This document shows positions 14,815-28,911 of a DNA stretch of 64,000 nt, in pieces. The notes under the pieces were generated by a model, which saw nothing but the letters and a program-made list of their open reading frames with translations, had not been told where the DNA came from and made no database searches. The translations under genes were made by a program, and so were the position numbers. Source of the stretch: a bacterium (GTDB lineage: Bacteria; Campylobacterota; Campylobacteria; Campylobacterales; Sulfurimonadaceae); the NCBI GenBank assembly GCA_018825665.1, contig JAHJEG010000015.1, positions 62,001-126,000 of the forward strand. The letters run 5' to 3'. The stretch's first letter is position 1; the number at the start of each line of letters is the position of its first letter.

Positions 14815-15270
14815 TTAGTCCGCTATGCGTTCTTTGTCACGGACGAGATTATGGCAGTTAAAACATGCACCGACTATATTTAAATACGCTTCTTGGGCAA
14901 TGGCTTGTCTTTTTCTTACAGATAAACCCTCTTTGTTCTCAATCGCTTCCCTGATTGTGGCAACACTTGTTTTGATTTTTCTGGCACTATCAACGGCGAT
15001 ATTCACCTTGTGCTTTTTGCTGTCCATATCTTTTGGCAGCATATCAATCATTTGGTCTCTGTTGCCCAGCAACTCTTCCGCATCCTTGGCAAAACTGTTT
15101 AAAATTATTGAGATCCCTTTTTTGTCGCTGGAAATAAAACCCCTTTGAAGCTCATTTAACTCAGCATTGAGTTTAAACATATTGGTTTTGAGGTCAAACT
15201 CAGACGCACTCAAAGAAGATATCCCCAAGGCCAAGGCCAAAAAACCGCTTACTAAAATTTTTGTATTCAT
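14815..15270 (-). CDS. Periplasmic monoheme cytochrome, cytochrome c'-like
   Basis: 151 residues with a signal peptide ending near SLSA (residue 22), a mostly helical body, and a single heme motif CFNCH close to the C-terminus (about residue 136). A C-terminal CxxCH on a four-helix bundle is the layout of class II cytochromes c (cytochrome c' and c-556), which bind NO or carry electrons in the periplasm. AAGGGG precedes the ATG and a TATACA box is about 40 bases upstream. The function is not settled by context. Confidence 0.8.
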   Translation of the reverse strand: MNTKILVSGFLALALGISSLSASEFDLKTNMFKLNAELNELQRGFISSDKKGISIILNSFAKDAEELLGNRDQMIDMLPKDMDSKKHKVNIAVDSARKIKTSVATIREAIENKEGLSVRKRQAIAQEAYLNIVGACFNCHNLVRDKERIAD

Positions 15271-16807: not shown

Positions 16808-17824
16808 ATGAAAGCATCAGACTTAACTACAATTATCGCATCTCTAGTCGTCCAGAAGGTACCGACTTTTCTTTGGGGTGCTCCGGGAATCGGAAAATCA
16901 TCCATTGTAAAACAGATATCAAAAGAGAAGGGGATAGGTTTTATAGATTTAAGATTATCTCTTATGGACCCGACCGATTTAAAAGGGGTTCCTTTTTATG
17001 ACAAGGAATCCCATACCGCTCTTTGGGCTCCTCCGGCCTTTTTGCCGCGTGAGGGCGAGGGGATACTGTTTTTGGATGAGCTTAATTCTGCACCTCCGAG
17101 CGTGCAGGCCTCGGCATACCAGCTGATTCTTGACAGAAAAGTGGGGGAGTATGAGCTTCCTGATGGCTGGGCGATAGTAGCAGCCGGAAACCGTGAGGGG
17201 GACAGGGGCGTGACGTATCGTATGCCTGCTCCTCTTGCAAACAGATTTGTGCATTTTGAGATGGAGGTCAATGTGGACGACTGGAGAGATTGGGCGTATA
17301 AAAACACCCTGGATGAGAGGATAATCTCATATATAAGTTTCAAAAACGAGCACCTCTTTACCTTTGATGCAAAAAGCGACAACAAAAGCTTTGCAACGCC
17401 AAGAAGCTGGGAATATGTGCACAATATACTCAAAAGCGATATAAGCGAAGAACTTATTTTGAGTGCACTCTCCGGTGCAGTGGGCAAGGATGTGTCTGTC
17501 GGTTTTTTGAGTTTTTCAAAAGTGATGAACAAACTTCCTGACATAGAAAATATCCTGGCATGTGCAAAGAGCCCGGATGGAGATGACAATAATATCTACA
17601 GCGAAGAAGTGGATGTACTCTATGCCTTAAGTACGGGGCTTGTAAGCAAACTACTGCAAAAAAACACGGAAGAAAGGCTGGATAATTTGCTGCGCTACAC
17701 CTTGGACCTCAAAAGTGAGTTTGCGGTTATGATCGTTCAGGACCTCCAAAGAAACGGGGTGACGATGGAACACTCCCAGGTATTCAAAAAATGGGTGCAG
17801 AAATTTGCATATCTCTTGTCATAA
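16808..17824 (+). CDS. MoxR-family AAA+ ATPase
   Basis: 338 residues. Walker A is WGAPGIGKSSIVKQ (about residues 18-31), Walker B is GILFLDELNSAPPSVQAS (about 85-102), and the sensor/arginine-finger region AAGNREGDRG with ANRFVHFEM follows. MoxR ATPases act as chaperones that load metals or remodel complexes, nearly always with a VWA-domain partner; here that partner is at 18576-19730, separated by a thioredoxin and a peptide gene. AAGGAAAG precedes the ATG, and the gene follows the LRV protein at once, so the two form an operon. Confidence 0.9.
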   Translation: MKASDLTTIIASLVVQKVPTFLWGAPGIGKSSIVKQISKEKGIGFIDLRLSLMDPTDLKGVPFYDKESHTALWAPPAFLPREGEGILFLDELNSAPPSVQASAYQLILDRKVGEYELPDGWAIVAAGNREGDRGVTYRMPAPLANRFVHFEMEVNVDDWRDWAYKNTLDERIISYISFKNEHLFTFDAKSDNKSFATPRSWEYVHNILKSDISEELILSALSGAVGKDVSVGFLSFSKVMNKLPDIENILACAKSPDGDDNNIYSEEVDVLYALSTGLVSKLLQKNTEERLDNLLRYTLDLKSEFAVMIVQDLQRNGVTMEHSQVFKKWVQKFAYLLS

Positions 17825-17851
17825 GAGTTTTTAAAAGAGGAAAGATAAATT

Positions 17852-18217
17852 ATGGAAAATGTCCTAGAGATAACAGACGCGACATACAGCGCTTTTATAG
17901 AAAATACGGATGCGGTGGTTTTTATAGATTTTTACAGCCAGACATGCGGGCCTTGCCAGACTTTGCTCTCATATCTTCCCGACCTCTCGAAACATTACAA
18001 AGAGGATGCCGTGGTCATTGCAAAGGTCAATGTCGCTTCCAATCCCAAGCTTGCAAAAAAGTTTATGGTGCGAAGTGTTCCTTTGAGCATAGTCGTAGGC
18101 AGGGATAAAATGGTGAAAAATGCAGAGGTGGGTTTACTGGGGAAGGATGCTTATTTTAAGATGATAGACAATGAACTTAAAAAGAATACCGGATTCTTCT
18201 CTAGGTTGTTTGGATAA
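17852..18217 (+). CDS. Thioredoxin-like protein
   Basis: 121 residues, no signal peptide, thioredoxin fold with the canonical active site SQTCGPCQTL near residue 34 and the cis-proline region VRSVPLSIVV. It is a cytoplasmic dithiol oxidoreductase. Its place between the MoxR ATPase and the VWA partner suggests a redox service for that complex, but it could be a general thioredoxin. AGAGGAAAG lies upstream of the ATG. Confidence 0.88.
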   Translation: MENVLEITDATYSAFIENTDAVVFIDFYSQTCGPCQTLLSYLPDLSKHYKEDAVVIAKVNVASNPKLAKKFMVRSVPLSIVVGRDKMVKNAEVGLLGKDAYFKMIDNELKKNTGFFSRLFG

Positions 18218-18233
18218 TATTTTATTATAATAC

Positions 18234-18255
18234 GCTAACACTTTGCTAACACTTT
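18234..18255 (+). promoter_or_regulatory. Tandem 11-bp repeat at the -35 region of the small peptide gene
   Basis: GCTAACACTTT occurs twice with no gap. The second copy ends five bases before a TATAAT box (18261-18266), so the pair covers the -35 position. Direct repeats with 11-bp period at this place are typical of OmpR/PhoB-type activators. Confidence 0.5.
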
Positions 18256-18260
18256 GAAGC

Positions 18261-18266
18261 TATAAT
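18261..18266 (+). promoter_or_regulatory. -10 box of the small secreted peptide gene
   Basis: TATAAT 28 bases before the ATG of the 44-residue peptide, with AAAAAGGA as ribosome-binding site between. The tandem 11-bp repeat stands where a -35 element would be. Confidence 0.55.
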
Positions 18267-18294
18267 TTTCCTAACCCAAACAAAAAGGATTCAC

Positions 18295-18429
18295 ATGAAA
18301 AAATTTACAGCGACTTTGTTAGTATTAGCAGCTTTGGCGTCAAGCGCGTTCGCACACCATAACTCTCCATCAAGTACTGCAGGCGGCAATATCTCAGATG
18401 GTTCAGGTCATTTAGATTTAGTATTTTAA
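18295..18429 (+). CDS. Small secreted peptide, 44 residues
   Basis: ATG with AAGGA five to nine bases upstream; stop TAA at 18427-18429. The first 20 residues (MKKFTATLLVLAALASSAFA) are a textbook signal peptide with an AFA cleavage site, leaving a mature peptide of only 24 residues starting HHNSPSS and ending LDLVF, rich in Gly, Ser and His. A promoter with a tandem 11-bp repeat lies upstream and a hairpin pair follows, so it looks like an independent transcription unit. I know no family. The N-terminal His-His of the mature peptide could bind copper or zinc. Confidence 0.65.
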   Translation: MKKFTATLLVLAALASSAFAHHNSPSSTAGGNISDGSGHLDLVF

Positions 18430-18435
18430 TCCATT

Positions 18436-18490
18436 GGTGCGGTGTCTTGCCGCACCTGCTCGTTTGACGGGCGTTTTCCTTTTTTAATTT
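18436..18490 (+). terminator. Terminator after the small peptide gene
   Basis: Two hairpins in series: GGTGCGG/CCGCACC (18436-18456), then GCTCG/CGGGC with one G-U pair (18458-18472), followed by GTTTTCCTTTTTT. The T-rich tail makes this the best rho-independent terminator candidate of the region and separates the peptide from the VWA gene. Confidence 0.7.
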
Positions 18491-18547
18491 CAATTAAATT
18501 TATACTTCTTGCTGTTTTGTCTTGTTTTAGCGAAGAATAACTTATGT

Positions 18548-18553
18548 TATAAT
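18548..18553 (+). promoter_or_regulatory. -10 box of the VWA gene
   Basis: TATAAT 22 bases before the TTG start of the VWA protein, after the terminator; it indicates that this gene has its own promoter separate from the MoxR operon. Confidence 0.55.
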
Positions 18554-18575
18554 CTTTGATAAATTACAGGATAAG

Positions 18576-19730
18576 TTGTTCCCTCCCATGCCAGGTATTG
18601 AAAAAAAAATTTCACAAGCAAAATCAAAACTCTTAATCGATTATCCCTATTTCGGCACTTTGGCTTCCAAGCTCGAACTCGTAGTCAATGATGATATACA
18701 GGCTTTTAAAAGTGACGGCATAAGCTTGCACTATAACAGCGATTTTTTTGAAGGACTTGAGCTTAGCGAGATGGAATTTGTATTTGCAAACGGAGCAATG
18801 CATGCATCTTTGGCGCATGAAGCAAGAAAAAACGGCAGAAGCGGATGGCTTTGGCAGATGGCGACAGACCTCGCCATAAATGATATGCTTGTTCAAAACG
18901 GTATGGATTTGCCCCATGGAGCGCAGTACAGAGTCAGATTTGAAGGGATGTACGCCGAAGAGATATATGCCGAGCTCAAAGACGATATTTTAAGAGAGGA
19001 CGAAAATCTCGAATACGAAGCGGACGATGCAGGTGATGTCCAAAACAACGAAAACAAAAACGAAGAAAAAAACACGCAGACCCAAACCCAGGAACAACTC
19101 CTAGAAGAGGTTTTAAAAGAGCAGCTCTTTGCAGAAGATGCCCTCTCCCAGCTAACAAAAGAGATACAAAAAGGGGAGGCTCCGCAAAGTATCGACAGAT
19201 TTTTCAAGCTTGAGAAGTTTGGAAAGATCGATTGGAGAGAAGAGATTAAAATCGCTCTTGAGAGATTTTTTAAAGATGATTATGTGCTCATTCCGCCGAA
19301 TAAAAAGTTTTTGCATATGGGGATTTATCTGCCCTCAAACATCAGTCGGACCTTCAGGCTTGTAATCGCGGTCGACAGCTCAGGTTCGGTAGACGAAGAT
19401 CTTTTGAACCAGTTCTTAAACGAAGTCAATTTTTTGATGAGTCTGGTGCATCATTACCAGATTGAGATGCTTGTCTGCGATGACAAGATTCATTCACACC
19501 GAACCTTCTACAGCGGGGATACTTTGGAGTGTGATTTAAGAGGGGGCGGGGGTACCGACTTCAGACCTGTTTTTGATTTTATAGACAAAGAGCTGGATGA
19601 TACCAAACTGCTTTTATATTTTACGGACTTACAGGGGATATTTCCACATGCCCAACCAAATTATGCGCTAAAGTGGGTTGCGCCAAGGAGAGGAGAAGTA
19701 CCGTTTGGCGAAGTGATACTTCTTGATTAG
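18576..19730 (+). CDS. VWA-like (DUF2201) protein with degenerate metallopeptidase domain
   Basis: 384 residues. The N-terminal half (about 10-115) matches the putative metallopeptidase domain that normally carries HExxH before an LW-x2-A-x-D-x-AIN block; here the block is intact (LWQMATDLAIN, 92-102) but the zinc motif reads NGAMH (72-76). A charged linker (140-175) leads to a von Willebrand A domain with MIDAS residues D267-S-S-G-S271, T327 (GGGGTDF) and D351. Such proteins pair with MoxR ATPases, as here. The start is TTG with AGGATAAG upstream; the ATG at 18588 is too far from a ribosome-binding site. The end overlaps the convergent GGDEF gene by 4 bases. Confidence 0.85.
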   Translation: MFPPMPGIEKKISQAKSKLLIDYPYFGTLASKLELVVNDDIQAFKSDGISLHYNSDFFEGLELSEMEFVFANGAMHASLAHEARKNGRSGWLWQMATDLAINDMLVQNGMDLPHGAQYRVRFEGMYAEEIYAELKDDILREDENLEYEADDAGDVQNNENKNEEKNTQTQTQEQLLEEVLKEQLFAEDALSQLTKEIQKGEAPQSIDRFFKLEKFGKIDWREEIKIALERFFKDDYVLIPPNKKFLHMGIYLPSNISRTFRLVIAVDSSGSVDEDLLNQFLNEVNFLMSLVHHYQIEMLVCDDKIHSHRTFYSGDTLECDLRGGGGTDFRPVFDFIDKELDDTKLLLYFTDLQGIFPHAQPNYALKWVAPRRGEVPFGEVILLD

Positions 19731-22365: not shown

Positions 22366-25300
22366 CTATTTGGAAGTTTTTTTGACAAGGCGCAGTCCGT
22401 CATCTTTATTGTGTATGTAGAGATAGTTCGACGTTGCGTCCGCTGCATAATAGAAGAAATCATTCTGTATCGCTTCATTGTAAAAAATGGCGTAAGAGTA
22501 GCGCGCAGTGTCCGTCTCCTGTAAGATACTGCTGCTTGATGGATGGATGGTATATACCTTATAATACACCTCCCCAAGCGCGCTGTCATAATGTCTTGTA
22601 AGCATGTAGATTGTGTTGTCAACGACACGGATAGAGCTTGGAATGCTTCCAAGATTCAATTGCGAGAAGTTGGGCAGAGTATAGTAGTCCACTACCTTTG
22701 CCGTGCCCGCATCACTGCCGTCACTCTCCCAAAGAGCATCAAAATACAGGAAGTAAAACTTGTCATCGCAGGTAAAATATCCGTTGATATCCTGTGCGTA
22801 TTGCTTGGCCCCAAAGCTGTGTGCCAGTACAGTTCCTCCCGGAGTTCCGTCTGTTTTCCACAGTTCCGTGACATCATTGTAGCCCACACTTGCGTCTCCC
22901 GCATATCTGTATTGGAAATAAACGGCGTCCTTGTATGTAATCATCTGATTCATATTGAGGCTTAGTTGTTTAAGAAACTGTGTGCCGCTCTGTGTCCCGT
23001 CACTGCTCCAGAGACCGTCTTGGGCATTGGTGCTGTCGTGATTATTGAAAAAAACTTTTTGGGCTCCTGTAAATAATGTAAAGATCTCCAAGCCGTTTTT
23101 GAGAAGCTTTGTTCCCTCCTGTGTACCGTCGCTGACCCAGAGCTCGCTGTTATTGGAGGTGCTGTCTTTGTCTGCAATAAAATAGAGCGTGTCGTTGAGC
23201 AGGACCAAAGATGTTATTTTCATAAAACCGGACATATCTTTGACAAGGAGAGTTCCCTCTGGAGTACCGTCTGTACGCCAGAGATGATAATTGTAATAGG
23301 TACTGCCTCCGCCTGCATGTGCAATAAAATAGACATTTTCTCCAAGAGTCACAAAGTCGGATGGAAATCCTATGCTCTTTGTGCTGTCTATTTGATGCGC
23401 TTGCTCGCCCACGCCTGCAACAAAAGGCTCTCTGTCTCCGGATTCGGTTTCTCCGGCATAGATATATTTTTGGGCAAACTTATGCATAGGTGTGCCCAGG
23501 TACAAGGAAGAGCCGCTTGGATTGGCATCGTTGAGCATCATTGTCCCGGCCTCACTCGCATCACTCATCCATGCTTCAACCGCATGCACGGTATCGGTAA
23601 AAGGCAGAAGAATGGAAGGTCTGTGATAAATGCCAAATTCCCCTTTTGCCGTATATACGCCGTCACTTACACTGATAATGATCTTTTGATCCAGAGTAAT
23701 GTCGGCACTCTCAAAGGCATCGACGGAGATGGTGCCGCTGCATTGAGAAATATTATTCTCATCCAGGCTGCAGCTGATATTGGAGATATGCGTTCCTTCG
23801 TATCCGAGAGGTCCTTCAATGGTTGAGATGCTCACCTGGATTGTGAGTGTGTCTATAGGCGTATCTCTGTCGGTAAGTGAAAAAGAGATCGCCACCTGGT
23901 CAGCTCCCCCTACACGAATATTTGTATCAAAAATATCTCCGCTGATTTGCGGACCTTTGTATGCTATTCCGTCGTAAAGGCTCAAAAGTACGGGCTGACC
24001 GCTGTTTACAAGAGCCAGAACCAGATCACGGTCGGTATCAAGAAATTCAAACTTCTGGATGTTCATAGCGGCATCTTTGTACTGAAAAATATTCTCATCA
24101 TCCCGTGTAGGGTGTGCGGCAGTGCTAAGAAAGCCCGAACAGGTGATTCCGTTGGCACAATAATAGGCGCCAATCGGATTGTAACGCAAAGACTTATTTG
24201 CGCCGTTAGCCGTCGAAGTACCGACATAATAAGCATCTGTCGGGGCATCGTAATTGAGCTGCTGAAGTTTGAGGCCCAGTCTGAGGTTGGCATAGAACCC
24301 ATCCACATGTGAGACCAGATTCATTTTTTTGTCATATCTGTAGGCCAAAGTTTTGAGCGGAGAATTTTCGTTATAGTAGAGCGTATATGGAACGCTATAG
24401 GATATATCCTGCGAATCGCTGAGCTCTATTCTGTTTTGTCCGTTGATTGTAAAAAGAAGAAGATTTCCGCTTTTTACCCCAAAAAGACAGTCCATTTTTT
24501 CGCTCGTACAGCTGTTTTGAATCTCTTTCCAATCCGCACGGTAAGAGGACTCTGTTTCAAAAAGCAGATTCTGGGTCAAGACGGCAAGGTGTGATTCATC
24601 TATAAATTCCAAATCCTGAAATACTGTCTGTGTCCCTATATTTGGATGGGAGAGCAGGGTGAGATTGGTATCGCTGATTGTATAGAGATTGAGTTTTGTG
24701 TGTACGGGTTCATGTTTATCGGTACTTGCATAGTCCAAAGGGATATAAGGCACAATCAACTGTGTTCTCTTAGGCGACAAGAAAGAGCGGATGGTCGTAA
24801 AGACGGTCTGATTGGATTCGTCTTTTATCTCAATGCTTGATTCAAGGCTCATCACACCCTCATCGGTATAACGTACCGTCATCACTCTTGCCCCTGAGTC
24901 ATGCGAGAAGACAAAGAGCATTCTGTTGTCCGCCAAAAGGCGCACCAGCGACAACTCTTTTTGTCCCGTTGAAAACATCGACCTGCCAATAGATTTTGAG
25001 GCTGTCATAGCCTCTTTTATCGGGAGAAGCGTGCCGTTGAAGTCGTTGATGTCATAACTAAAGAGCTCTCTCATAGTGGATGTCACGGGGTCAACCTCCA
25101 GCACGGTTGCAGGAAGCGTGTCGTAGATATTGCTGCTCACGATAGCTTTTGAATCAAAGATATCGATGATTTTTCGAAAATTCGTGTCACTCTCAAGCTG
25201 ATTCATCACACGCATCTCCATGGAGAGGACATCTCTTCCGCTTGCCATTACGGCAACATCAAGAGAGGTGTCCACAAGAGCAACGGAGCTGTTTATACTC

Positions 25301-28300
25301 TCATCCAAAACCACATCAACGGTTATGGAGACAAGCGCACTCGGTTCTCTTTTTTGATTATGCAGTTTTTGCTGCTCAAAATCACTGCTCAGTGGGTTTT
25401 CCAAGGCCAGCTGATTGCTTGAGTTATACACCGGATAATCGCTAATGACAAGCTGGTACTTATTCTCATCGAGATGTGTCCATTCAAATGCGGCATTCTT
25501 GTTGAATATCTCTTCGAGTTTAAGGGTTTGGCTGAACACACCTATCATATCGTCATCTTCCTTGCTTATTCCGTCATCTTCGACAATGGCAAGTTCGATG
25601 TAGAGTGCAGCTATGTTCTCACTTCCTCCGCTGTAGAGGAGTGCATCGTTCGTATCAAGCTCTTCATTGTCCGCTACCCCTGTAAAATAAAGATAATCCC
25701 AGTCCTGACCCGAAGCATCCCCTATCACCTCCGTGTCTGAAAAAAGTGAACGGATTTGATTCGAAGTCCTTGGGGCATCACCGATAACGCCTACAAACGG
25801 GATAAGATGGATCTCCGCATTATCGTCGGACTCATAATTGGAGATTATCTTTACATTGTTCAAGGAGACTTTTACGCTTGCAACGGGAGCGGAACTCACC
25901 CTTGCAAACTCCATGGCTCCTCTTGTCTTTTTGCCCACCCCAAACAAATACTGTGCGTCTGATTTTAGGACATTGTTCCCGTTTTGTGCAGAACCTTCAT
26001 TTTTGTAGTTATTCAAGAGTTCTTCAACATCCGAATAAAGATCCACGCCGCCGTTGAGTTTACTGATGTCGCTGCCGGTTCTGAGACGCTCTTTTGCTTC
26101 GTCTATCTTGCCGGCCTGGATAAGGGCTGCAATCTCTTGGGCCTCTCTCATAACCGTGCTGGTGTTTGAATCGCTTGAGCTTCCCGTGAGGACATTATAG
26201 ACATCTTGCTCGCCCGGGAGCTGCTCCTTGTCCATGTTGAGCACAAGGTCGGCTGTTTGGAAGAACTGCATTCCGCCGTTGCTTATGTCGGCAAGGCCGC
26301 AGGCAATCTTCGCATAACTCAGTTTTTGTCCGTAGGTGTCTATATCCGTATTTTTTTGGGCAACTCCGGACATATAAAAATGATAGGCGTCTTGTGTATG
26401 AAGCCCGTAAAAGGGATCCGTGCTTGAGAATCTGTTGATTGCGGCTCTGGCACTTCCCAGAGGATCGTCCTGTGCCGCAAGCTCCACGTCATGCAGCTCA
26501 TCCGCCAAGGTCACGGTATCGCAGACAAGATCGATAAAATTTCCCGTGACAATATTGAGTGCCTGACTTGCAGCATAGCTTAAGACAGGCAGAAGCTCCG
26601 CATTGGCATTATAAACATCCTGGTCGCTCGCCACATAATCAAAGGTGATAGGTAGGGTGCTTTTATTGACCCGCTCAACCGGCACGCCCAATACAGGACG
26701 GTTCGTTTCTATAATAACCGGAATGCGGGGGTATTCGCCCGTGTTTAAAAAAGTATCGATACAGCCGGTATTTGTGCTGTTGCACTCCATAAACTCCTGT
26801 GTTTTATAGGCAAGACCGTTGTAGGGAAACTGCCCCACATCGACCTGCACGGTTCTTTCTATCCAGTTTTGATAAAGGTCATAATAATTAGAGAGGATAT
26901 GAAGGTATTCCACGTCCTGATACTGTCTTTGCATATATTTTGAGTAATCTGTCATCACCATATGGGCTTTATAGCTCTCTGTGGGGTTTGCAATATTGTA
27001 AGGTCCGAGTTCCCCTTTTATACAGGTGTCCTGCATGCCGTCCTCATCGGGGCAGATATAGGTTTGCGGGTCATTTTGATAATCGTAGCTGTGTGCAGAT
27101 TCGTAGAGTTGTTTTCTTCGCAAAAACTCATCGTTGTAGCTGTAGCATGCTCCGTCTGTTTTAAACTCATCGCCTGTCTTTTGGGAATTTATCCAGCACT
27201 GCCAAAGCGCTATCTCATTACTCATCGTATCCGTGCTCTTGATGAGGTCATCGATATACGAGGGTATGTTGATAGGCGGTGCCATATTTGTATTGAGATT
27301 GATGCTCACTTCCCCCTCATTGAAGGCCCCGTCTTCCCCCTCTGTTTTTAGTGAAACCGATTTGAGGATTCCAAGCACAAACTCTTTTGTCTGTATCTGC
27401 TGGTCTGTATTGATATAAGTCGCCAGATTCAAATAGGTCTCACCGCCTTGCGTTATAGAGGTTGGAGCGAGTCCTGATAGGGTGCCTGCATCTGTCGCAG
27501 AAAAGGAAACAGCGTCTTTTGGCAAAATATCAAGTCTCCATATACCTTTTTCCCTCGTGACCCCATCCATCTGCAAAGCACCGAGCGAACCCCCTGATTT
27601 GCCCCAGAAGACACTTCCTCCGGGTGCGTACAGTACATAGTTGAAATAAGCCTCCGTATCATTGTCCGTATCGATATCAAAAGTGATGTTTAAATCACTC
27701 AGCTGTGAATGAATCGTGCTGAAAGTATAGGATTTTGCATGAAAGAGAGTGTTGTTCCTGTAAAGCTCGTCTGAGCCCGTACTTAAGAACTCCGTGCCGT
27801 TTAAGAAGATATGCTGTGCGACTCTTTGCGGCTGTATGATATCTGTAAGGGTGATGCTAAACTGTGCATCGGCTCCCTCAAATACAAAGGGTTTGCACAC
27901 ATCCGCGCCTGTAATAGGGATATAATAGGTATAGGTCTCACCGATAAGGCGGTTATCCAGCTCTGCGGATTCGCTGTTTTTTATGATGATACGTTGATCT
28001 GAGCGACCCGAGACGACAATAACGGCGATTCCCGTTTGAGGAAACTGCACTTTGACATCGCCCCCTTCAGAGGTGACGAGAGTGGTATTTACGGAGCTCT
28101 GCTCTTTTGCAATCGTCATTGGAAAATGGACTCTTGAAATTTGGCAGCTGTTGTCCATAAACGGAAAATCAGAGACGATCCCATCCGGTCGAAGCTCTTT
28201 ATCGGCGTTGACGAGCACGTAGCCATCAGGCACCAGTGCACTCACGCGAGAGGCCGATTGCGAAGGAGCAGAGGAGGTGCCGATGGTATCTCGTGCCAGT

Positions 28301-28911
28301 ATATTTTGATAGCGCTGATCCAGATTACCGAAATTATTCACCATCTCCACCTTCTCAAAAGCACTCTGTAGAGAGAGAAATGCCTCCATGCTCAGAGGCT
28401 CCTGCGCTGCGAGTCTGAGTTTTTTGTTGAAGCTTTTTAATTTTTCCTGATTTAAAAGATCCAAGGCCTGTGTACTGATGTTTTTTACAGGAAATATTTT
28501 CGAATCAGGCAAGGCAATCATTTGCTCTACCAAAACAGGAGAGTAGCGGAGTGCTTTTAGCTTGTCTATAACCTCAGTTGCCACTGCGGCATCTTCAAGC
28601 TTTTTATACTCAATCTTATTGTTATTCACTCTGAGCAGTTTGGAGATCTCCTCCGTACTTATCTGCGGATTGGCATTTTGTATCTCAACACTCAAAGCCA
28701 AGGCGCCTACGGAGGATATTTTGCTCTGAAGCTCCTGCACACTGCTGATACCTATGGAAGAGAAGGTCGCATTAAAATCCTCCAAAACTACAGAGGTGTC
28801 TTCAAAAACAGTGCCAGAACCGCCGCTGCTTCCTCCCCCTCCGGAACATGAAGTCAAAACCAAAACGCTAAAAAGACCCAAAACCAAACTTTGAAATTTT
28901 ATGGGATACAT
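22366..28911 (-). CDS. Giant outer-surface lipoprotein with ELWxxDGTxxGT repeats
   Basis: 2181 residues, the largest gene here. Signal peptide with lipobox LTSC (Cys22), then a Gly/Ser-rich spacer. Most of the chain is long, acidic and beta-rich with no family I can name; around 1690-1850 the pattern suggests cadherin- or Ig-like domains. The last 350 residues hold five copies of a beta-propeller-like motif: HLWRTDGTPEGT, ELWVSDGTQEGT, GLWSSDGTQSGT, ELWKTDGTPGGT, ALWESDGSDAGT, plus a degenerate AWMSDASEAGT. Such repeats occur in large bacterial surface proteins. It has its own promoter with an 11-bp-periodic box shared with the next exported operon. Confidence 0.85.
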   Translation of the reverse strand: MYPIKFQSLVLGLFSVLVLTSCSGGGGSSGGSGTVFEDTSVVLEDFNATFSSIGISSVQELQSKISSVGALALSVEIQNANPQISTEEISKLLRVNNNKIEYKKLEDAAVATEVIDKLKALRYSPVLVEQMIALPDSKIFPVKNISTQALDLLNQEKLKSFNKKLRLAAQEPLSMEAFLSLQSAFEKVEMVNNFGNLDQRYQNILARDTIGTSSAPSQSASRVSALVPDGYVLVNADKELRPDGIVSDFPFMDNSCQISRVHFPMTIAKEQSSVNTTLVTSEGGDVKVQFPQTGIAVIVVSGRSDQRIIIKNSESAELDNRLIGETYTYYIPITGADVCKPFVFEGADAQFSITLTDIIQPQRVAQHIFLNGTEFLSTGSDELYRNNTLFHAKSYTFSTIHSQLSDLNITFDIDTDNDTEAYFNYVLYAPGGSVFWGKSGGSLGALQMDGVTREKGIWRLDILPKDAVSFSATDAGTLSGLAPTSITQGGETYLNLATYINTDQQIQTKEFVLGILKSVSLKTEGEDGAFNEGEVSINLNTNMAPPINIPSYIDDLIKSTDTMSNEIALWQCWINSQKTGDEFKTDGACYSYNDEFLRRKQLYESAHSYDYQNDPQTYICPDEDGMQDTCIKGELGPYNIANPTESYKAHMVMTDYSKYMQRQYQDVEYLHILSNYYDLYQNWIERTVQVDVGQFPYNGLAYKTQEFMECNSTNTGCIDTFLNTGEYPRIPVIIETNRPVLGVPVERVNKSTLPITFDYVASDQDVYNANAELLPVLSYAASQALNIVTGNFIDLVCDTVTLADELHDVELAAQDDPLGSARAAINRFSSTDPFYGLHTQDAYHFYMSGVAQKNTDIDTYGQKLSYAKIACGLADISNGGMQFFQTADLVLNMDKEQLPGEQDVYNVLTGSSSDSNTSTVMREAQEIAALIQAGKIDEAKERLRTGSDISKLNGGVDLYSDVEELLNNYKNEGSAQNGNNVLKSDAQYLFGVGKKTRGAMEFARVSSAPVASVKVSLNNVKIISNYESDDNAEIHLIPFVGVIGDAPRTSNQIRSLFSDTEVIGDASGQDWDYLYFTGVADNEELDTNDALLYSGGSENIAALYIELAIVEDDGISKEDDDMIGVFSQTLKLEEIFNKNAAFEWTHLDENKYQLVISDYPVYNSSNQLALENPLSSDFEQQKLHNQKREPSALVSITVDVVLDESINSSVALVDTSLDVAVMASGRDVLSMEMRVMNQLESDTNFRKIIDIFDSKAIVSSNIYDTLPATVLEVDPVTSTMRELFSYDINDFNGTLLPIKEAMTASKSIGRSMFSTGQKELSLVRLLADNRMLFVFSHDSGARVMTVRYTDEGVMSLESSIEIKDESNQTVFTTIRSFLSPKRTQLIVPYIPLDYASTDKHEPVHTKLNLYTISDTNLTLLSHPNIGTQTVFQDLEFIDESHLAVLTQNLLFETESSYRADWKEIQNSCTSEKMDCLFGVKSGNLLLFTINGQNRIELSDSQDISYSVPYTLYYNENSPLKTLAYRYDKKMNLVSHVDGFYANLRLGLKLQQLNYDAPTDAYYVGTSTANGANKSLRYNPIGAYYCANGITCSGFLSTAAHPTRDDENIFQYKDAAMNIQKFEFLDTDRDLVLALVNSGQPVLLSLYDGIAYKGPQISGDIFDTNIRVGGADQVAISFSLTDRDTPIDTLTIQVSISTIEGPLGYEGTHISNISCSLDENNISQCSGTISVDAFESADITLDQKIIISVSDGVYTAKGEFGIYHRPSILLPFTDTVHAVEAWMSDASEAGTMMLNDANPSGSSLYLGTPMHKFAQKYIYAGETESGDREPFVAGVGEQAHQIDSTKSIGFPSDFVTLGENVYFIAHAGGGSTYYNYHLWRTDGTPEGTLLVKDMSGFMKITSLVLLNDTLYFIADKDSTSNNSELWVSDGTQEGTKLLKNGLEIFTLFTGAQKVFFNNHDSTNAQDGLWSSDGTQSGTQFLKQLSLNMNQMITYKDAVYFQYRYAGDASVGYNDVTELWKTDGTPGGTVLAHSFGAKQYAQDINGYFTCDDKFYFLYFDALWESDGSDAGTAKVVDYYTLPNFSQLNLGSIPSSIRVVDNTIYMLTRHYDSALGEVYYKVYTIHPSSSSILQETDTARYSYAIFYNEAIQNDFFYYAADATSNYLYIHNKDDGLRLVKKTSK

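Follow-up and report, generated by a model that had tools for sequence, protein, structure and literature searches.

A family of 44-residue exported peptides and its predicted two-component envelope regulon in Sulfurimonas, Sulfuricurvum and relatives

A short peptide gene very probably belongs to an envelope regulon. The gene lies at positions 18295..18429 on the forward strand of the window, the 64,000-nucleotide stretch of DNA analyzed here. It is not a self-contained unit, because the tandem repeat in front of it belongs to a multi-gene regulon. The initial annotation had treated the locus as self-contained, and this part was not supported, as the repeat also precedes genes of a two-component system and of further exported proteins. 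The claim that the locus carries a real gene for a short exported peptide was borne out by paralogs, by relatives with an intact frame and by purifying selection, and the activator-type repeat, -10 box, ribosome-binding site and terminator were supported as well. The comparisons show a family of 44-residue peptides with a predicted Sec-type signal sequence, and we regard this family together with its regulon as highly probable. The account that we consider best joins family, regulon and a role of the peptide in metal buffering, and as a whole it is tentative, slightly more doubtful than not.

The elements that had been described for the locus were all present when the sequence was read directly and folded. 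Two perfect copies of an 11-bp box (CTAACACTTTG) stand in tandem at 18235-18245 and 18246-18256, followed on the same strand by the -10 hexamer TATAAT (18261..18266), which is 9 bases from CTAACA of the second copy, and by the ribosome-binding site AAGGA (18285..18289). The frame of 44 codons starts with ATG at 18295, ends with a TAA whose last base is 18429, and encodes a type I peptide (HHNSPSSTAGGNISDGSGHLDLVF after the signal peptide). Codons 1-20 (18295..18354, forward strand) make up the predicted signal peptide, which signal peptidase I is predicted to cleave at AFA|HH, and the 24-residue mature peptide (18355..18426, forward strand) has no predicted fold. AlphaFold2 gave a helix at residues 2-20 and left the mature 24-mer without secondary structure (pLDDT about 52-56). 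Two adjacent hairpins and then a T-rich run downstream (18436..18485, forward strand) form a probable terminator according to a pattern scan and folding. The hairpins read GGUGCGG..CCGCACC and then GCUCGUUU..GGGC, the second being the sole terminator-like match of the scan, and the folding energy of the pair was -22.4 kcal/mol vs -12.3 +/- 2.8 for shuffled sequences (z -3.66).

The pattern scan gave no sigma-70 promoter for the gene, as a -35-like hexamer at sigma-70 spacing is lacking, and the only promoter-like match of the stretch lies elsewhere. The tandem repeat occupies the usual -35 position, and the box pair (18235..18256), which overlaps the -35 region, is predicted to be bound by a response regulator. 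The missing hexamer fits an activator-dependent promoter. The distance from the box to the -10 hexamer of the window gene is identical across the peptide family.

The peptide gene and the thioredoxin gene (17852-18217) are flanked by a gene for a MoxR-like AAA protein and one for a DUF2201 metallopeptidase/VWA protein (window 16808-19730). In Sulfuricurvum, the type I peptide L199 lies less than 1 kb from a similar AAA gene, in opposite orientation. Two further genes lie on the reverse strand of the window. One encodes a putative lipoprotein of 2181 residues with CSGGGGSSGG after the signal sequence (22366-28911), the other an exported-looking protein of 151 residues that contains a CxxCH motif and had no match in Pfam (14815-15270).

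The source genome, a 2.34 Mb draft whose named relatives are chiefly Sulfurimonas and Sulfuricurvum MAGs, contains four copies of the gene, as the window gene has three paralogs at 55-57% identity. An alignment of ten members was used to search 135 genomes of the genus (very probably Sulfurimonas) and then 398 genomes of the order. Thirty-four of the 135 genus genomes matched at E 0.01, with scores that fell into two classes: full-length matches in 13 genomes at E 2.7e-18 or better, and remaining matches at E 2.4e-5 or worse that mostly covered the signal peptide alone. In the order search, full-length matches were found in 13/398 genomes (E 1e-17 or better), including other genera and one genome, G418, from another family, and here too every other match was at E 2.4e-5 or worse. 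Relatives were found in some Sulfurimonas and Sulfuricurvum and a few other Campylobacterales. The family table comprises 33 members from 18 genomes, equal to 31 distinct proteins; G410 was left out of it, since its g27 sister genomes were already included. Longer proteins bearing the mature motif were also sought and none was found; the readable long-frame matches (6 of 10 opened) belonged to different proteins whose signal peptide is similar.

The peptides are 44 residues long, with a few of 45-54, and are encoded by one to four stand-alone genes per genome. Two types can be told apart by their mature motifs, which are HHxSPSxxAGGN..SGHL..F in type I, to which the window gene belongs, and HHMAxYxDAGxxIPxxSPHLxMxF in type II. 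Eight residues (A20, H21, H22, A29, G30, S37, H39 and L40) never differ among the 31 distinct members, of which the window gene is one, and the invariance of A20, H21 and H22 is the basis for the predicted AxA|HH-type cleavage site. All 31 distinct proteins of the table end in an aromatic residue, Phe in 26 and Tyr in 5, and the Sulfuricurvum type I member L199 carries an extension and ends in Leu. Short forms have alternating hydrophobic residues before the last residue, and long type I forms have a polar third-last residue. Every tabulated genome with a type I gene also has type II (8/8), as does the genome shared by L199 and L209. In G032 (L013, C1:2169514-2170759), two pairs of type I and type II genes encoding identical proteins are repeated in tandem every 775 bp, an array that is a recent segmental duplication.

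Comparison of synonymous and non-synonymous changes, which had been proposed along with frame conservation as a check on the gene, gave a clear outcome for a coding frame. For the mature part, pN was 0.148 vs pS 0.581 in type I (nine members, with three long type I genes tallied separately) and 0.160 vs 0.793 in type II (21 members). Between the window gene and G016a, there were 20.7 synonymous changes over 30.7 sites and 6.3 non-synonymous changes over 101.3 sites. These substitution counts indicate that the frame is under purifying selection. A chance frame or the leader of a regulatory RNA would be in keeping with the very short length and the lack of a family model, yet the frame is intact in 33/33 tabulated members, the synonymous excess is strong, and the start codon, ribosome-binding site and stop are conserved among the tabulated members, so that we consider it extremely improbable that there is no protein gene here.

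The tandem box accompanies the peptide gene throughout the family. We scored the pattern CTWACR-N5-CTWACR-N9-TANAMT, which was fully met in 22/33 members and with one mismatch in seven; the rest had two (G418), three (G317) or four mismatches (G388 and G490), and the peptide boxes of the g27 genomes were degraded, with 3-4 mismatches. The box was found in 33/33 tabulated members, 26-29 bp 5' of the start codon and at a fixed distance from the -10 hexamer, and in a control of 200 shuffles per upstream region (6600 in total) the observed score was reached once, for G490. By eye, the box could also be seen at L199, L203 and L209, in the last case 85 bp before the start and after a leader.

Genome-wide counts tie the box to further genes. 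In the source genome, the 20-bp box core at three or fewer mismatches occurred at 7 sites in 2.34 Mb vs 0 in the reversed control, and four of these sites belong to the peptide genes, the others to genes for a DUF2202 protein, an exported protein rich in Q/N, and a response regulator of OmpR type that is accompanied by its kinase. Counting the box plus -10 at one mismatch or fewer against a reversed control, we found 76 matches vs 11 across 19 peptide genomes, 29 of the 76 being peptide boxes. Twelve genomes with the two-component system and without the peptide gave 32 matches vs 8 in the control, and 15 genomes without the system gave 7 vs 16. Enrichment was confined to genomes with the OmpR-type system; system presence in these 27 genomes was assigned by a regulator search for 12 and by a kinase search for 15.

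The OmpR-type regulator (L029:7980-8618-) and the kinase (L029:6938-7993-) are accompanied in a syntenic operon by an exported protein of ~130 residues and an outer-membrane-like protein, which in the source genome has a Pfam match to a thrombospondin-3 motif; in some genomes the latter two genes precede the regulator. For the regulator, the top match showed an identity of at least 46% in 18/18 peptide genomes searched and in 3/3 further ones (21/21). The g27 regulator is only 46% identical, near the level of paralogs, and in G388 the neighboring genes match. Six of 12 non-peptide genomes had a regulator ortholog, and the other six only matches at 41-46% identity and E 1e-46 or worse; for this split the hypergeometric probability is about 8e-4, the 12 genomes being the first ones of the no-match lists and no random draw. 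The kinase was matched in the f11 genomes listed only at about 1e-27 to 1e-31. Its sensor part contains a CxxxxxC pair in 20/21 orthologs, G388 being without it.

A box with three or fewer mismatches lies directly 5' of the regulator in 9/21 operons, and a box-like site (five or fewer mismatches, or by reading) lies 5' of the gene for the ~130-residue protein or its counterpart in 20/21, the exception being G418. Scores at neighboring genes were mostly 6-9, with few at 4-5. This arrangement strongly suggests that the regulator is autoregulated and switches on the peptide genes. An identity of the ~130-residue protein with the Spy/CpxP chaperones was considered and set aside, as no profile or PDB match was found with the proteins of 11/21 operons, the G418 protein being cut to 91 residues.

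The genes behind good boxes mostly encode exported-looking products, namely the ~130-residue protein, DUF2202 proteins, Q/N-rich proteins and the peptides, and from this we read the regulon as a probable envelope response. The DUF2202 targets have either a twin-arginine-like start or the domain at the end of lipoproteins. Lipoproteins with DUF2202 toward the end and a good upstream box were seen at L187, L189, L193, L197, G011 and G073, and several DUF2202 lipoproteins share GQLVD(S/N)YVEN near the start, a second DUF2202 architecture in the regulon. DUF2202, which we take to be a ferritin-like metal protein domain, was present in 14/18 peptide genomes, 4/12 genomes with the system only and 1/13 genomes without the system. 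A few box matches precede cytoplasmic-looking genes (e.g., L185, L190 and L195). In two genomes (at L185 around 942 and at L190 around 1492), a box-like site (CTAACACTTATTTAACA) lies 5' of a gene that presumably resembles moaC and may be an additional, non-envelope target. Among the box targets read, none was recognized as a gene for metal efflux or uptake.

A conserved neighbor was also sought as a functional clue, and none was found in the peptide-gene neighborhoods read. A weakly NifX-like gene (PF02579, below cut-off) lies 3' of the peptide gene in G016 and G139, with a similar one further off in G086; the similar-looking gene of the source genome had no match. In two Sulfuricurvum genomes (L208/L209, 3319 onward), a TonB-dependent receptor gene begins ~185 bp 3' of the type II gene on the same strand, and on the other side an outer-membrane efflux protein gene lies beyond a DTW-domain gene. 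Such a receptor gene downstream was not seen beside peptide genes outside Sulfuricurvum L208/L209.

In the mechanism that we prefer, the OmpR-type response regulator, paired with a sensor kinase in the membrane, would bind the tandem 11-bp box that replaces the -35 element. Since this regulator would control its own gene as well as those for the ~130-residue protein next to the kinase, the DUF2202 proteins and the exported Q/N-rich proteins, the peptide would be made as part of an envelope response, be it to stress or for adaptation. It would then be exported by Sec and probably cleaved at AFA|HH, as the conserved sequence features indicate. The flexible 24-mer may bind metal, possibly Cu(II), through its N-terminal amine, its two N-terminal His and the invariant third His, and could thereby buffer metal in the periplasm or outside the cell during the same stress, comparable to SilE/PcoE. 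An N-terminal Xaa-His segment is a known chelating arrangement for Cu(II). Metal binding through the free N-terminus and three invariant His is speculative but preferred, and we hold this step only tentatively. Consistent with it are the invariant H21, H22 and H39, the unstructured mature part, the co-regulated DUF2202 proteins and the CxxxxxC pair of the kinase. Against it speak that invariant His make up only 3/24 mature residues, that the type II Met residues are missing from most type I peptides, and that no box target read was recognized as a metal transporter. The lack of a conserved neighbor, the degraded g27 boxes with their 46% identical regulator, and the 6/12 searched genomes in which the regulator is present and the peptide missing count against the explanation too.

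The chief rival of metal binding is feedback on the kinase, in which the exported peptide would bind its own sensor kinase at the periplasmic loop, thereby damping or boosting the response, as MgrB does with PhoQ. A small exported regulon member of an autoregulated system with a strongly conserved mature part would suit such a role, and there is a precedent in MgrB, a 47-residue PhoP-regulon member that acts at the membrane and inhibits PhoQ, as far as the available part of its description goes (PMC8404706). MgrB keeps its membrane anchor, being a membrane protein according to the same part of that source, whereas the peptide here has a predicted cleavable signal peptide. Twelve genomes have the two-component system and lack the peptide, and simple feedback would not need as many as four paralogs, of two types, in one genome, so that we regard feedback as unlikely, though worth keeping in mind. 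Less likely again is a combination of the two ideas, in which type I and type II peptides would loop back on the cysteine-bearing sensor and carry metal to or from the kinase at their N-terminal His-His site, so that a Gram-negative chemolithotroph would sense peptide and metal in one circuit.

Pheromones tend to differ from species to species, and the mature part of this peptide is nearly fixed across genera, which argues against a secreted signal or factor that acts on other cells as a pheromone or antimicrobial. The occurrence of type II in every type I genome and the alternation of the two types in the G032 array could point to a paired factor, but the pairing may reflect descent only, and we consider such a role improbable. 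No recurrent immunity, peptidase or transporter gene was recognized in the neighborhoods read. The initial annotation had suggested a signal, a metal-binding peptide or a toxin-like factor, and for the toxin-like factor there was no pointer, with no immunity, export or lysis gene recognized in those neighborhoods and mature peptides that are net acidic or neutral. Slightly less probable still is that the peptide mimics the C-terminus of an outer-membrane protein, binding the PDZ domain of HtrA/DegP or the barrel-assembly machinery and so tuning envelope quality control. The aromatic last residue of all distinct tabulated members and the alternating hydrophobic residues of the short forms would favor this, but it is weakened as a main reading by the terminal Leu of the extended L199 and by the polar third-last position of the long type I forms.

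Small proteins that are exported and governed by a two-component system have been described before, and the peptide family and its regulon are new as far as our searches reach. The peptide had no Pfam match, no NCBIfam match above cut-off and no match among PDB sequences (best E 1.1), and a literature search found no description of the family among the entries listed; a search for DUF2202 found nothing. The AimP phage pheromone family (NF033802) was rejected as a relative, as it scored 15.7 and 14.2 bits vs a cut-off of 35 and matched the N-terminal part only. A mobile or viral origin was likewise set aside, with no match in IMG/VR viral contigs, plasmids or phages.

Several described systems resemble parts of this one. 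The DccRS (Cj1223c-Cj1222c) site is a direct repeat with an 11-bp period and the half-site TTCAC, whereas the half-site here is CTAACA. DccRS of Campylobacter jejuni, from the same order, is OmpR-type and autoregulated and has a small number of putative periplasmic or membrane targets, and the available parts of its descriptions contain no 44-residue histidine peptide (PMC7118207, PMC9449129). Similar traits are seen here in the predicted site 5' of the regulator (9/21) and of the kinase-adjacent gene or its counterpart (20/21). PcoE is a periplasmic metal sponge, and SilE and PcoE are regulated by SilRS and PcoRS. Sponges of this type bind Ag/Cu by means of numerous His/Met residues. In the part of its description available, SilE is a disordered periplasmic sponge (PMC5008109). 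The peptide resembles these proteins in being small and predicted to be exported, disordered and under a two-component system, but it is far shorter, has three conserved His, carries Met mostly in type II and has a putative metal role, and no metal-resistance operon was recognized around the peptide genes in the neighborhoods read. CrdA of Helicobacter pylori, larger than the 44-residue peptide, is a further counterpart. It is a putative copper-binding protein under OmpR-type control (CrdRS) in the same order (PMC9182242, PMC9449129), but belongs to a copper efflux system (PMC12319023), a comparison made by description only from the available parts of these sources.

With this work, an apparently undescribed peptide family joins the catalogue of small proteins together with its regulator, a predicted binding site and co-regulated genes. 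With the regulator, the site and the co-regulated gene set in hand, the role of the family is testable at once. An envelope two-component regulon is thereby outlined in the sulfur oxidizers Sulfurimonas and Sulfuricurvum, and the DUF2202 proteins gain a regulatory context.
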